NCBI RefSeq assembly: GCF_003369835.1
Contig: NZ_QPMJ01000005.1
Location: forward strand, 62,001 to 126,000
Reading direction: 5' to 3'
Origin: Halorussus rarus
GTDB taxonomy: Archaea > Halobacteriota > Halobacteria > Halobacteriales > Haladaptataceae
Length of the DNA stretch: 64,000 nucleotides
In this document: one piece after another, positions 5,527 to 20,960 of the stretch
Layout of the letters: each line of letters starts with the position of its first letter
Numbering within the stretch: the stretch's first letter is position 1
Notes under the pieces: model-generated
What the model was told of the DNA's origin: nothing
Databases searched by the model: none
The model's input: only the letters and a program-made list of their open reading frames with translations
Made by a program: the position numbers and the translations under genes

Positions 5527-6678
5527 ATGTCCACGAACGACCGGATTCGCACGACGCACGTCGGAAGTCTCCCGCGACCGCCGGAACTGCTCGACCTCCT
5601 CAAACAGCGGCAGGACGGCGAGGACGTCGACCCCGAAGAGTGGGACGCCACCGTCGCCGACGCCACGCGCAGAGTCGTCGAGCGCCAGGCCGACGTCGGC
5701 CTCGACGTCGCCAACAACGGCGAGCAGTCCCGGGTCTCGTTCAACTGGTACGTCGCGGACCGCCTCAGCGGTATCGAGGGCGAGCGCGAGCAGGAGCTCT
5801 GGGCGGACCTCCAGGAGTTCCCCGACTACGCGGAGGAGACGTTCAAGACGGACGTCATCGACCTCTCGATGCAGCCCGTCGTCACCGGCCCCGTCGAGTA
5901 CACCGGCCACGACGAGGCCGAGGCCGAACTCGCACAGTTCCACGACGCGCTGGCGGCCGTCGACGCCGACTTCGAGGAGACGTTCGTGACCTCGGCGTCG
6001 CCCAGCGTCGTGGCCGCGACCCACGTCAACGACTACTACGACTCCTACAAGGAGTTCCTGTTCGCCGTCGCGGACGCGATGGCCGAGGAGTACGAGCTCG
6101 TCGCCGAGGCCGGAGCGACCCTCCAGATCGACGCACCGGAACTGCTCACCATCGGCCAGACGGCAGCCTACGCTGACGAACCCCTCGAGGCGGTCAAGGA
6201 GGCGACGCGCCTCAACGTCGAGGCGCTCAACGAGGCGCTGTCGGGCGTCCCGGCGGAACAGGTCCGACTCCACACCTGCTGGGGGAGCTACGAGGGGCCC
6301 CATCACCTCGACACGGACCTGGTCGAGATGCTCCCGGAGATCTACGAGGCCGACATCTCGGGACTCAGCATCGAGCAGGCCAATCCCCGTCACCAGCACG
6401 AGTACCGGGCGTTCGCCGAGCACCCGCTCCCGGACGGCTGGACGCTGATGCCGGGCGTCGTCGACGTGAAGACGAACGTCATCGACCACCCCGAGACGAT
6501 CGCCGACCGCCTGGAGCGGGTCGACGACGCGGTCGACGACTCGACGCCGCTGGTCGCCGCGCCGGACTGCGGCTTCGGGACGCAGGCCGGACTCGGGATG
6601 GTCGACCCCGAGATCGCGTGGGCGAAGCTGGACGCGCTCGTCGAGGGCGCCGAGATCGCTACCCGGCGAATCCGGTAA
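5527..6678 (+). CDS. Cobalamin-independent methionine synthase (MetE C-domain) family methyltransferase
   Basis: A 383-residue protein equivalent to the C-terminal catalytic half of MetE. HVGSLPRP at 11-18 is the family start motif. The zinc-binding residues of MetE are visible: H249 and C251 in HTCWG, E283 in SIEQAN and C348 in PDCGFG. These enzymes transfer a methyl group to a thiol such as homocysteine; archaeal and catabolic members act alone without the N-terminal folate domain and can use other methyl donors. Archaeal methionine synthases are often shorter and paired, so substrate is uncertain. It is a single gene behind its own promoter and palindrome. Confidence 0.88.
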   Translation: MSTNDRIRTTHVGSLPRPPELLDLLKQRQDGEDVDPEEWDATVADATRRVVERQADVGLDVANNGEQSRVSFNWYVADRLSGIEGEREQELWADLQEFPDYAEETFKTDVIDLSMQPVVTGPVEYTGHDEAEAELAQFHDALAAVDADFEETFVTSASPSVVAATHVNDYYDSYKEFLFAVADAMAEEYELVAEAGATLQIDAPELLTIGQTAAYADEPLEAVKEATRLNVEALNEALSGVPAEQVRLHTCWGSYEGPHHLDTDLVEMLPEIYEADISGLSIEQANPRHQHEYRAFAEHPLPDGWTLMPGVVDVKTNVIDHPETIADRLERVDDAVDDSTPLVAAPDCGFGTQAGLGMVDPEIAWAKLDALVEGAEIATRRIR

Positions 6679-6764
6679 GCTTCGCGGAAATCGTGTATCG
6701 AAACGGGGCGAACGCTGACGCTTCGATGACGGGAAGACATATATGCCCCTGGTGATTATGGGCG

Positions 6765-6875
6765 GCTAAGGGCTAGCGTCGAGCCCTTCCCGAAACGCGA
6801 CAAGCGTTTCACCGCAGCGGTCCCCATTCCCCGCGCGGGCGGTTTTCCCCGGCCGGCCGGCCCGCGCGGCTTTTC
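6765..6875 (+). ncRNA. Candidate structured small RNA with three consecutive hairpins
   Basis: The 325-base gap after the MetE-like gene contains three perfect stems in a row: AAGGGCT/AGCCCTT (6768-6774 with 6782-6788), GAAACGC/GCGTTTC closing a GACAA loop (6792-6798 with 6804-6810) and CCGCGCGGGC/GCCCGCGCGG (6831-6840 with 6860-6869), the last followed by CTTTTC. A TATA-like CATATAT lies at 6738-6744, about 25 bases before the first stem. The layout fits a free-standing transcript with a terminator-like end. I know no Rfam family that it matches. It could instead be a processed 3' UTR of the upstream gene. Confidence 0.45.
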
Positions 6876-7003
6876 AAACTCCGAACTCACCGGTAGCTGT
6901 CAGCGGGGAGACTGGTCGAGAAAGACGTCATGGAAGATCGCGTTCTGCTCGTGAGCAACGTCCAGAGGCGGTGATTTGGCGGACTGGGTTGTGACGGGTC
7001 GCG

Positions 7004-7741
7004 TCACCGCATCGTGAGCCCGCCGTCGACGGACAGCACACTCCCGGTCACGTAGGAGGCCGCCGGACTGCAGAGGAAACGGACGACCTCCGCTACCTCT
7101 TCGGGGTCGCCGACGCGTTCGAGCGGGAGGTCACCCGCGAACGCTTCGAGGTCCGATTCCGTCCAGAGCCCCGAGTCGGTCAGGAGCGGCGTGTCCACCA
7201 CGCCCGGGACGACGCAGTTCACGTTCACCGCCGGCCCTAGTTCCTTGGCCAGCCCCTTCGTGAGACCGAGAACCCCGGCCTTCGACGCCGAGTAGTGGAC
7301 GCCGGCCGACGCGCTCCCGACGAGTCCGGCCGTGCTGGAGACGTTGACGACGAACGCGCGGTCGCGCTCGCGGAGGTGGGGTGCAGCCTCGCGGACGAGC
7401 GTGAAGTAGCTCTTGAGGTTGACGTCGAACAGCCTGTCCCACTCGTCGGCGGTGAGGTCGGCTATCGAGACGTCCCTGGAGACGCCGACGTTGTTTACGA
7501 CCGCGCCGATGCGGGCCTCTCCGGCCACCGTCTCGACCATCTCCCGCAACGCGGCCTCGTCGCGCACGTCGAGTTCGAACGAGGCGAGACGGTTGTCGGG
7601 CGCGTCGGAACCCTCGGGCGGGTCGACGTCGGCGCACGCCACGTACCCGTACCGCGAGTCCGTCGCGAGCGCCGACGCGATCGCCCGGCCGATACCGCTA
7701 CCGGCGCCCGTCACGATAGCCGCCAGTGGGTCGTCGGACAT
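7004..7741 (-). CDS. SDR-family oxidoreductase, last gene of the importer operon
   Basis: A 245-residue classical short-chain dehydrogenase. TGAGSGIG (11-18) binds the cofactor, NNVG (83-86) is the structural motif, and S135/S136, Y150 and K154 (YSASK) form the active site; it ends [15 protein letters not shown]. It probably oxidises or reduces a small alcohol or ketone with NAD(P). The start ATG at 7741 is 2 bases after the stop of the deacetylase gene, so it is the ninth and last gene of the operon that begins near 16974. The exact substrate cannot be read from the sequence. Confidence 0.9.
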
Positions 7742-7743
7742 GG

Positions 7744-8577
7744 TCAGTCGGAGTACCCAGCGACGACCGAGTCGACGGTTTCGAACGCGACGTCGTCGGC
7801 CGCCACCATGTGATCTAACAGCGATTCGAGGTTGGCCAGCCGGTGGCTCTGGCCGACGACCTGCGGATGGACCGTGAGCACGTACACCCCGCCGTCGACG
7901 TGCTCGCGTATCCAGTCGAACTGTCGCCGCCACATGTCGAACACGGCCGTCTCGACGGCGAACCCCCGCTGCCGGCTGAACGCCAGCGCCGGGAAGTCGT
8001 CGCGCTGCCACGACACGGGGACCTCGACCACGTCGGTCGGCTCGCCCCGCTCGTAGGGCGCGTCCGCGGGGGCCCGCCAGCCCTCCCGGAGCCGGTACGG
8101 CTCGAAGTCGTGCGCCATCTGGCTCGAGTCCCACGCGAAGCCCAGTTCCCGGAGTATCCCGAGCGTGTTCGGCGAGAAGTCCCACGACGGCGAGCGGTAC
8201 CCCGCCGGTCGTCGCCCGGTCAGCGACTCGATGGCGTCTATGCCGCGCTCGATATCGGCGCGCTCGCTGGCCCGGTCAGCGTAGTTCGACGGACGGGTGT
8301 GCGACCAGCCGTGGTGTTCGATCTCGTGGCCGCCGGCCCACACCTCCTCGACGACCTCGGGGAAGCTCTCGACGGTGTGGCCCGGGACGAACCACGTCGT
8401 CGAGAGGTCGTACTCGTCGAGCAGTGCGAGCAGTCGCGGCGCGCCCACGTCCGCGCCGAACAGCCCCCGCGAGAGGTTCGTGGGACTGTCGGCCTCGTCG
8501 AACGAGTGGATCCACGCCGAGACGGCGTCGAAGTCGACGGTCAGGCAGACCGTGGCGCCGGAGTCGGCCCCGGTCAT
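7744..8577 (-). CDS. Polysaccharide deacetylase family hydrolase (NodB/CE4 fold)
   Basis: A 277-residue protein with the CE4 fold: the catalytic Asp region is [12 protein letters not shown] (about 11-22), the metal-binding HxxxH-type block is [25 protein letters not shown] is motif 3, and [13 protein letters not shown] is the last active-site block. Members without signal peptides act in the cytoplasm on small molecules; PuuE-type allantoinases belong here. No signal peptide is present, so a cytoplasmic C-N hydrolase fits the amidohydrolase-rich operon better than cell-wall deacetylation. Start ATG 8577 overlaps the creatininase stop by 4 bases. Confidence 0.85.
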
Positions 8578-9317
8578 CGGTCCAGGTCGGCCGCGAGTTT
8601 CCGGAGTATCCTGTCGGTAGTTCGCTCGATGACCGATGCCACGAACTCGGGGTCCGAGTCGGTGGGGTCGCCCAGTCCGCCCTCGACCGTGAGGTCGGTG
8701 AAGTAGCGTTGCTGGGTGGTGTCGCCGTTCTCCTTCATCGTCTGGGGTCGCTTGTTCTCGGTCCGGACGAGTTCCGGGCGGTAGTGCTCGATGACACTGG
8801 TCTCGTGTTCTCCCGCGTGACCCCAGTCGTCGCCGAACTCCGCCTCGAGTTCGTCGCGCGCGAAGTCCGTCCAGTTGACGTAGTGGGTCCTGAGGCCGTG
8901 GTCGCGCTGGAGCCGGTCGATGGCGAGCTTGTGGGGCTCCACGTTGCCGGCGTGGAAGTTGGTGATGAGTAACCGCTCGCCGCCGTGTTCCTTCACCGAT
9001 CGGCCGATGTCGACTATCACGTCCTGGTACGTGTCGGCGTCGAGCGTGATCGTTCCCGAGAACGGCAAATGGTGCTCGGAGTAGCCGTACGGCAGCGGCG
9101 GTAGCACGAGCAGTTCGAGGTCGTGTGCGGGCGCGGCCTCGGCGAGTTCGTGGGTGAGGTGCTTCGAACGCAACGTGTCGACGGAGGTCGGCAGGTGTGT
9201 GGAGTGTTGTTCGGTGCTTCCGCAGGGAAGGACCACGAAGTCGGCGGTCTCGAACTTCGCTTCGGCCTCTTCCCACGTCTTGGTAGCGAGTCGGTAGTCG
9301 TCGGTGTTGTCTGTCAT
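8574..9317 (-). CDS. Creatininase-family amidohydrolase
   Basis: A 247-residue protein of the creatininase family. PCGSTEQHSTHLPTSVDT carries the first metal-binding Glu and His of the usual GSxEqHGpHLPlxTD, ITNFHAGN carries the conserved NxHGGN-like block (Ala instead of the first Gly), and GHAGEHETS provides the later catalytic Glu. Members hydrolyse cyclic or linear amides such as creatinine, formamidopyrimidines or mycofactocin precursors. Within this operon it is likely a second C-N hydrolase acting on the imported compound. The ATG at 9317 is followed by no alternative start. Confidence 0.87.
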   Translation of the reverse strand: MTDNTDDYRLATKTWEEAEAKFETADFVVLPCGSTEQHSTHLPTSVDTLRSKHLTHELAEAAPAHDLELLVLPPLPYGYSEHHLPFSGTITLDADTYQDVIVDIGRSVKEHGGERLLITNFHAGNVEPHKLAIDRLQRDHGLRTHYVNWTDFARDELEAEFGDDWGHAGEHETSVIEHYRPELVRTENKRPQTMKENGDTTQQRYFTDLTVEGGLGDPTDSDPEFVASVIERTTDRILRKLAADLDR

Positions 9318-12187: not shown

Positions 12188-13307
12188 CGTCATCACCCGC
12201 TCCGAGGGCCGCGACCCGTTCGGCGTCCCCCTCGCCCGCGCCGTCCAGCGGCGGGCTCACGTCGTAGTCGGCTTCGAAGGTATCGTGTTTCAGGCACGCT
12301 GCCCGCTGGCCGTCGTCGGTCACCGTCCGGAGGTCCGGGTGCACCTGCGTGCAGACCTCGCGAGCGTCCGGGCACCGGTCGTGGAACCGGCAGCCAGACG
12401 GCGGATCGATGGGCTCGGGCATCGTCCCCCGGAGCGGCCGGAGCTCGTCGACCGTCTCGTCGGGGCGCGGGACCGAGTCGAGCAGCGCCGCCGTGTAGGG
12501 GTGTTGGGGGTCGTAGAACAGGCGCTCGACGTCGGCCCGTTCGATCACCTCGCCGAGGTACATCACGTTGACCCGGTCGCAGATCTCGGCGACGACGCCC
12601 ATGTCGTGGGTCACCCACAGGAAACTGGTGTCGTACCGCGCCTGGAGGTCGTCCACGAGGTCGAGTATCTGGCCCTCGACGGTCACGTCGAGCGCGGTGG
12701 TGGGCTCGTCGGCGATGACGAGCTTCGGCTCGCACGCCAGCGCCATCGCGATGAGCACGCGCTGGCGCATCCCGCCCGAGAACTCGTGGGGGTAATCGTC
12801 GAGCCGCTCGTCCGGCTTCGGGATGCCGACCTCCCGGAGGATCTCGATGGAGCGTTCGCGGGCCGCAGCCCCCGTGAGGTCGCGGTTCAGCTCGATAAAC
12901 TCGCGGAGCTGGTCGCCGACGGTGAACACGGGGTTGAGGCTCTCCATCGGGTCCTGGAAGATGATGGCGATCTGGTTGCCTCGGATCTGCGAGCGCATCG
13001 CCCGCTCGGAGAGCATCTCCTCGCGCGGCGTCGGCTCGTCGGCCTCGTCGGCCTCGTCGTCTTCGAACCCCACGATGGTCTCGCCGTCGAAGGTCACCTC
13101 GCCACCCACGATGCGGCCGGGCGAGTCGACCAGCCGGAGCAAGCTCTGGACGGCGACGCTCTTGCCGGCGCCGGACTCGCCGACGAGGCCGACGATCTCG
13201 CCGCGCTCGACGGTGAACGACACTCCGTCGACAGCCCGGACCGCACCGGTCCTGGTGGGGAACTGCGTCCGCAGGTTCTCGACGCGTAACAGTGGCTCGT
13301 TAGTCAT
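12180..13307 (-). CDS. Peptide-type ABC importer ATPase (OppD/DppD-like)
   Basis: A 375-residue ABC ATPase with Walker A GESGAGKS (43-50), signature [16 protein letters not shown], Walker [13 protein letters not shown] and the C-terminal dipeptide-transporter block [10 protein letters not shown] and [15 protein letters not shown] short acidic insertion ([16 protein letters not shown]) follows the first sheet, a halophile feature. It partners the OppF-like protein downstream, with which it overlaps by 8 bases, to energise the two permeases. The gap to the permease gene upstream is 51 bases. Confidence 0.93.
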
Positions 13308-19575: not shown

Positions 19576-20823
19576 TCACTCCGAGATGTCCACGTACTTC
19601 TCGACGGAGTCGTGGACGCCGACGAAGCCGATCACGTCAGAGAGCGCGTCGATAACGACCGGGAGGTCCTGGGCCAAGTCGTGTTCGCGGTACTGCCCGC
19701 CGTCGAGGCCCTCGTTCTTCTTCTCGACGCTGACGAGGCCCAGCATCGCGAGGTCGTCCATCTGGTCGCGCATCCAGCGACTGGTGAACGAGTCGTCCTT
19801 CGCACGCTCGGAGAGCTTCTTGTATCGCTGGTAGTGACGGCGCGACCGGATGGGCGTCTCGCCCTCGGCGTGGAGCGTGGCGAGCGCGTAGAGCGCGATC
19901 TGTTCGTTCTCGCTCAGGTCCGTGATGCCGCGGTGGACCTCCTCGCGTTCGAGCATCTTCCGGCCCTCCCTGACGTGGTGTTCGGTCACGTTCTCCGGGT
20001 GGTCGTCGTCGGGACGCTGGTCGCGCTCCTCGCGAGCCTTGTCGCCGGCCTTCAGCAGGAGGTCGAGCGCCTTCCGTGCGTCGCCCGACTCCTGGGCGCC
20101 GTAGGCCGCGCACAGCGGGATGACGTCGTCGGTGAGCGCATCGTCCTGGAACGCGACCTCGTGGCGTTGTTCGAGGACCGCCTGCAGTTCGCTGGCGTCG
20201 TAGGTCGAGAACGAGATCTGACGTTCGCACAGCGACGACCGGACCTTGGGCGACAGCGAATCGCGGAACGTGAGGTCGTTGCTGATGCCGATGACGGCGA
20301 CCCGGGCCGACGCGATGTTGTCGTTCTCGCGGGCGCGCGAGAGCTGGTAGAGGATGGAGTCGTCGTTGAGGTGGTCGACCTCGTCGAGGACGATGATGTG
20401 GAGGCCCGCGCGGCCGTCGAGCTCGTTCCAGAGCATGTCGTAGACCTGCGAGCGCGGATAGCCCGACTCGCTGATCTGTTCGTCGGCCGACCGGTAGTTG
20501 TTGACGAGTTCGACCCCGACGCGGTAGGAGGTGTTCAGTCCGTCGCAGTTCAGGAACTCGGTGTGGATGGGGACGTCGTGTTCGTCGGCGTCGGCGGTGA
20601 GCCTGTTGAGCAGGAACTTGGTGCTGGCGGTCTTGCCGACGCCCGCCTTCCCGTAGAGGAAGATGTTGTCTGGTTGTTCCCCGTTGATCGCGGGCAGCAG
20701 GGCGGCGTGGTACTCCTCGAGTTCGTCGTCGCGGCCGACGAGGGTGTCCGGCGTGTAGTCGTCCAGAAGCGCCTCGCGGTTCTCGTACGGGAAGGCCTGC
20801 GGACTGAATTCGTATCCGTTCAT
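19576..20823 (-). CDS. orc1/cdc6: Orc1/Cdc6 replication initiator
   Basis: A 415-residue AAA+ protein. Walker A GKAGVGKT (58-65), Walker B VLDEVD (145-150), sensor 1 VIGISNDLTF, and a C-terminal winged helix (about 320-415, including SRRHYQRYKKLSERAK) match archaeal Orc1/Cdc6. It recognises origin boxes and recruits the MCM helicase. It is transcribed away from an adjacent array of ORB-like repeats, the usual haloarchaeal initiator-origin arrangement. I use the ATG at 20823 (MNGYEF); an in-frame start 12 bases further upstream is possible. Confidence 0.95.
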   Translation of the reverse strand: MNGYEFSPQAFPYENREALLDDYTPDTLVGRDDELEEYHAALLPAINGEQPDNIFLYGKAGVGKTASTKFLLNRLTADADEHDVPIHTEFLNCDGLNTSYRVGVELVNNYRSADEQISESGYPRSQVYDMLWNELDGRAGLHIIVLDEVDHLNDDSILYQLSRARENDNIASARVAVIGISNDLTFRDSLSPKVRSSLCERQISFSTYDASELQAVLEQRHEVAFQDDALTDDVIPLCAAYGAQESGDARKALDLLLKAGDKAREERDQRPDDDHPENVTEHHVREGRKMLEREEVHRGITDLSENEQIALYALATLHAEGETPIRSRRHYQRYKKLSERAKDDSFTSRWMRDQMDDLAMLGLVSVEKKNEGLDGGQYREHDLAQDLPVVIDALSDVIGFVGVHDSVEKYVDISE

Positions 20824-20883
20824 GACGTGTGACACCGTCGGGGTTTCTACTCCATGTGTTCGAATCCACTATCATAAATCCAC

Positions 20884-20960
20884 CGCACCACCCGTTCCAG
20901 TGCTTCCATTGCTCGGGTTCGTTTAAATCACCCCCACACCCCGTCGTTCCAGTGCTTTTG
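20884..20960 (-). repeat. Two inverted ORB-like boxes on the orc1 side of the origin
   Basis: AGCACTGGAAC followed by a G-rich tail occurs on the minus strand at about 20884-20903 (tail degenerate: GGGTGGTG) and 20932-20957 (AGCACTGGAACGACGGGG, full match to the right-hand boxes). They face the boxes beyond the AT-rich stretch. Confidence 0.8.

Follow-up and report, generated by a model that had tools for sequence, protein, structure and literature searches.

A Conserved Four-Hairpin Element of Halorussus rarus: A Candidate Stand-Alone Small RNA Gene

Introduction

Small RNAs number in the hundreds to thousands in haloarchaea, but few of them, to our knowledge, have comparative support or a known target. 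Is a short series of hairpins in the genome of Halorussus rarus one more such gene, or is it part of an adjacent gene, an element acting as DNA, or an accident of base composition? The locus lies in the 64,000-nucleotide stretch analyzed here (contig NZ_QPMJ01000005.1, positions 62,001 to 126,000, forward strand; hereafter “the window”), in which an intergenic region of approximately 108 nucleotides on the + strand (6768..6875) is predicted to specify a small RNA with four hairpins, H1 to H4. The original prediction, made from the letters of the window, had drawn attention to three perfect stems, a TATA-like box before them and a CTTTTC tail behind, all of which are present where it had placed them. 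The reading that we hold, with moderate confidence, is that of a stand-alone small RNA gene on the + strand, extending over approximately 6768-6875; the comparison with related genomes favors a transcribed, structured and stand-alone RNA. From the same comparison we infer that the element is transcribed, where its transcript starts and ends, and that it acts in trans.

Conservation of the Fold

Window positions 6740-6880 were used as the query in a similarity search of 99 genomes (its own, 17 of the genus, 10 of the family, and 71 of the order). Two homologues were found, both within the genus: one in G013, with 81% identity (expectation value, E, 7.5e-22), and one in G008, with 78% identity (E 6.9e-16). 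The best match after these had an E of 0.0015 over 25 bases. Matches at E ≤10 were present in 96 of the 99 genomes, and all except those in the window's own genome and the two homologues were short pieces with E >0.001, which were discarded. The element is not protein-coding; the copies differ by indels of 1 and 4 bases, which are not multiples of three.

Alignment of the three copies, with H3 set by hand, gives 30 base pairs. As + strand RNA all 30 are kept in the window and in G013, and 29 in G008; as − strand RNA two are broken in G013 and six in G008. Although 13 changes fall on paired bases, only one of the 60 homologue pairs is broken, mostly because of G-U wobbles, which fit the + strand. 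In H4 of G008, C-G has become U-G once and G-C has become G-U twice, all still paired on that strand, and one H3 pair, G-C in the window, is U-A in both homologues, a double change. Wobble changes and one double change in two homologues of the genus are thus the stem-keeping substitutions to which the original prediction had looked for support. They also bear on a different explanation, namely that the locus is a small non-autonomous mobile element or a recombination site whose hairpins act as DNA: six of the 30 G008 pairs would be G-T mismatches in DNA, whereas they are wobble pairs in + strand RNA.

Substitutions avoid the stems. Their frequencies in paired versus unpaired columns are 4/60 versus 19/54, 9/60 versus 20/53 and 5/60 versus 23/52 in the three comparisons (Fisher p 1.6e-4, 0.009 and 1.7e-5, with H3 aligned by hand). 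The consensus fold, at −42.6, compares with a column-shuffle mean of −22.3 (standard deviation 3.3), none of 300 shuffles being as low, and the structure conservation index is 0.94. In the unedited MAFFT alignment, sliding the partners lowers the paired fraction from 93.9% to 22-50%. Judged from the aligned sequences by substitution placement, column shuffles and slid controls, secondary structure is conserved in these related species. Both arms of H1 are letter-for-letter the same in the three copies, and its loop varies at two sites only (A/G). A loop-loop contact between H1 and H2, sought by eye, was dropped, since the three complementary bases are expected by chance.

The stem series was also compared with chance. 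In its strict form (perfect stems of 7, 7 and 10 base pairs [bp] within 115 bases) it occurs once on the + strand of the window, never on the − strand, and in none of ten simulated 64-kb dinucleotide-matched sequences. A looser series (any three stems of at least 7 bp with loops of at most 20) is found twice on the + strand and zero to two times per simulation (n = 10). In this looser form, the earlier claim that three ordered stems are rare therefore amounts to no more than chance. A second series of three consecutive stems of at least 7 bp, at 12675-12767, is within the chance range (0-2 per 64 kb). Such loose triple stems and the lack of excess folding stability would suit chance palindromes in GC-rich DNA, an explanation that stem-constrained homologues in two other genomes make extremely improbable.

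Several observations weigh against a conserved small RNA gene. The fold of the window's copy is not exceptionally stable, its folding energy being ordinary (z −0.31 on the + strand and −0.04 on the − strand). Because of this and of the chance level of the loose series, sequence alone would not settle the matter, and three perfect stems make a weak argument by themselves. Only three sequences are available for comparison, and both the column shuffles and the placement of substitutions use the alignment with H3 set by hand. In the unedited MAFFT alignment as many as 194 of 500 partner shuffles reach the paired fraction, a control that the real pairing thus does not exceed, and within paired columns the preference for keeping pairs has a p of approximately 0.045 per homologue, the two not being independent. 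The G008 copy has one broken pair (a C-A mismatch) in H2 and no TATA-like box, and its own minimum-energy fold diverges from the consensus after H1. Finally, a covariance model (see below) indicates that the element is absent from 15 of the 18 genus genomes.

Promoter-Like Element, Start and Terminator

Similarity among the copies begins abruptly at TAAGGG/AAGGG (window 6767-6768), where the start site would lie. Upstream of this edge the only common run is GGAAGAC, found exactly 29 bases before AAGGGCT in the three copies amid unrelated surroundings; a three-way identical run of at least 7 bases arose once in 100,000 random triples of 100-base stretches. The bare word GGAAGAC shows no enrichment in the window (13 occurrences, against an expectation of 12.2). 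Nine of 28 family genomes have it 26-32 bases ahead of AAGGGCT, at ten places in all; three of these are the copies themselves, and the other seven were attributed to chance, because their genomes have no match to the element. The TATA-like box is partly kept in G013 (CTAATA). A conserved 7-mer and then a 29-base spacer that is not conserved resemble a promoter and not the end of a mobile element.

Promoters with a B recognition element (BRE) and TATA box, and terminators in which a T stretch ends at C, are established in Haloferax (PMC4983044, PMC7237163). The haloarchaeal words given in the former are CGAAA for the BRE and TTWT for the TATA box, which GGAAGAC and ATATAT resemble only loosely; the latter describes intergenic termination sites of Haloferax volcanii as T stretches ending at C, with hairpins upstream of 503 sites. 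Both the promoter-like position and the hairpin with its T-tract-C end are in keeping with a small RNA. The homologues likewise support the structured RNA of the original prediction, which had, however, counted three hairpins and overlooked the 4-bp H3.

Transcription would start at approximately 6768 from a BRE/TATA-type promoter (GGAAGAC plus ATATAT), and the RNA would fold into four hairpins and end at a GC-rich hairpin followed by TTTTC, with H4 as the putative terminator (Table 1). Wobble changes are tolerated in the other stems, but both the sequence and the fold of H1 are fixed across the three sequences, which makes H1 the best candidate for recognition and the likely part to touch a target messenger RNA or protein.

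Table 1. Coordinates of the predicted small RNA gene and its parts in the window
Feature	Position	Strand	Arms	Remarks
GGAAGAC promoter-like element, BRE position (−36 to −30)	6732..6738	+		No differences among the three copies
TATA-like box ATATAT (−29 to −24)	6739..6744	+		Read from sequence; 24-29 bases 5′ of stem 1
Predicted small RNA, ~108 nucleotides	6768..6875	+		Start from conservation edge and TATA-like distance; end from hairpin and TTTTC
Hairpin H1 (stem 1), 7 bp, loop AGCGTCG	6768..6788	+	AAGGGCT/AGCCCTT (6768-6774/6782-6788)	Both arms identical across the three copies
Hairpin H2 (stem 2), 7 bp, loop GACAA	6792..6810	+	GAAACGC/GCGTTTC (6792-6798/6804-6810)	Kept in G013; C-A mismatch and two wobble pairs in G008
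Hairpin H3, 4 bp, ACCG CAG CGGT	6811..6821	+	ACCG/CGGT (6811-6814/6818-6821)	Paired in the three copies after aligning a one-base loop difference
Hairpin H4 (stem 3), GC-rich, 10 bp + bulge + 2 bp	6831..6869	+	CCGCGCGGGC/GCCCGCGCGG (6831-6840/6860-6869)	Perfect in the window
CTTTTC tail, terminator-like	6870..6875	+		3′ ends of the three copies: CTTTTC / TTTTTC / CATTTC

Genomic Neighborhoods

In the window the element occupies a convergent intergenic region between a cobalamin-independent methionine synthase-like (MetE-like) gene (5527-6678, stop codon at 6678) and a short-chain dehydrogenase (SDR) gene (7004-7741, stop at 7004). Its start, approximately 90 bases past the MetE-like stop codon, and the terminator-like H4 with TTTTC would suit a 3′-end or terminator structure of these two genes, with no independent RNA function. 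Against this, the element is kept beside unrelated genes elsewhere, the G013 copy lying between two genes without a Pfam match and the G008 copy near an eIF-1A-like gene. Homologues of both window neighbors are present in G020 and G023 (86%) and in G013 (87%), with no copy adjoining: G020 and G023 are without any copy, and that of G013 is more than 2 Mb from the neighbor homologues on the same contig. Nor would a terminator need an invariant H1. Because the flanking genes are unrelated and the neighbor homologues have no adjoining copy, a role tied to the neighbors is unlikely, and we regard the terminator explanation as clearly improbable. Very doubtful, too, is a riboswitch-like 5′ leader of a downstream gene. 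It would fit the G013 copy, which is approximately 200 bases upstream of a same-strand open reading frame (L044 8464-9507), but the next convincing downstream gene lies on the opposite strand both in the window and in G008, and the element carries its own terminator-like hairpin at its end.

No protein is common to the three neighborhoods (64 kb, 20 kb and 20 kb) except for one 29% match, which lies 27 kb from the window's copy. Since no gene is shared by the near neighborhoods of the three copies, the small RNA would most likely act in trans. The element combines stems under constraint with a promoter-like element that does not vary and a start that is sharp, and its differing genomic places in related species separate its function from that of the neighbors.

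Each of the three genomes has one copy, the contigs concerned measuring 145 kb, 219 kb and 3.96 Mb, and the placement of the copies suggests either movement of the element or frequent loss and rearrangement. Palindromes are typical of small mobile elements and recombination sites, and these, together with the patchy presence (three of 18 genus genomes, at three unrelated sites), would be expected of hairpins acting as DNA. Around the copies there are no direct repeats of at least 7 bases, such as target-site duplications, and no inverted repeat common to the three; with a single copy per genome, and given the G-T mismatches and promoter-like upstream edge described above, we consider a DNA-level element rather unlikely. 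A small RNA gene might itself be mobile: a cassette of promoter, four-hairpin RNA and terminator moving between chromosome and plasmid-like contigs of different species is a tentative possibility, on the unlikely side. Such an RNA-only gene would have no protein partner and would work wherever it landed, on a target common to all hosts.

The window's 145 kb contig is probably a plasmid, since its orc1/cdc6 replication gene (19598-20956) resembles Halorussus plasmid genes, matching those of two plasmids at 80-81%. An ARAGORN call of tRNA-Gly at 8914-9007 lies inside a creatininase-family gene (8574-9317, − strand); Rfam finds no tRNA in the window, and the call is probably false.

Distribution and Database Searches

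A covariance model built from the three copies was positive in three of 28 family genomes, all within the 18 of the genus. With stricter filters it was positive in two of 391 class genomes (the window's own and G013) and in one of 392 phylum genomes (the window's own); the class and phylum draws overlap. Rfam 15 gave no matches in the window, no family reaching its gathering score; the best sub-threshold match for the element was Atu_C8 on the − strand, at 17.4 bits versus 50 (E 0.83). Blastn gave weak partial matches to 45 plasmid and 4 phage records, none spanning 80% of the query. The element was not found described in the open-licence PubMed Central literature searched.

Pattern searches produced a few candidates, none of which was retained. 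The stem-1 pattern gave two matches in viral contigs (L038 and L039), both inside the same phage gene and without the other hairpins. The stem-1-to-stem-2 pattern had no match in viral contigs and one in genome contigs (L043, from a betaproteobacterial metagenome-assembled genome), with the remainder missing. A two-mismatch stem-1 search of 392 order genomes gave an extra match in G017 (L072), which shows a tempting paired change; as it falls within a long reading frame that is dehydrogenase-like, and the other hairpins are missing, it was discarded as chance.

At a distance of 1.4 kb from the G008 copy there is a lone repeat resembling the CRISPR-DR24 (clustered regularly interspaced short palindromic repeats) family (L045:11142-11171, − strand; G008:C7:102641-102670); its 5′ half is altered and its tail is spacer-like. 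The same contig has further members of the family, located near 30 kb, 33 kb and 194 kb. The lone repeat could be a relic, or could act as a mini-CRISPR regulator. Between the element and the G008 CRISPR repeat there are only 5-6 base matches, and the lone repeat's tail has no match to the element of at least 7 bases. A CRISPR-associated RNA was rejected as an identity for the element, which does not contain the repeat or handle; the repeat family has no match in G000 and G013.

Comparison with Known Small RNAs

The element looks like a real, as yet uncharacterized small RNA gene, and offers a clean candidate both for a trans-acting RNA and for the study of how RNA genes spread. Three archaeal small RNAs invite comparison. 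The s479 RNA of Haloferax volcanii (PMC8155600) is a haloarchaeal small RNA acting in trans, as we infer for the element, which matches the G008 CRISPR repeat over no more than 6 bases. In Methanosarcina mazei, sRNA154 (PMC5867862) is likewise intergenic, with stable hairpins proposed to contact target messenger RNAs, although it belongs to another lineage and its targets are known. The third, sRNA132 of Haloferax volcanii (PMC6560208), of 138 nucleotides with BRE and TATA box, is a stand-alone intergenic RNA with a stem structure, restricted to one genus. It is present in more than ten Haloferax species, with its genomic place kept in 11 of 12, whereas the element, compared with it by description, has four hairpins and is found in three of 18 genomes at three unrelated places. 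The element thus resembles the genus-restricted intergenic small RNAs of haloarchaea, from which it differs in its patchy presence and changing place.
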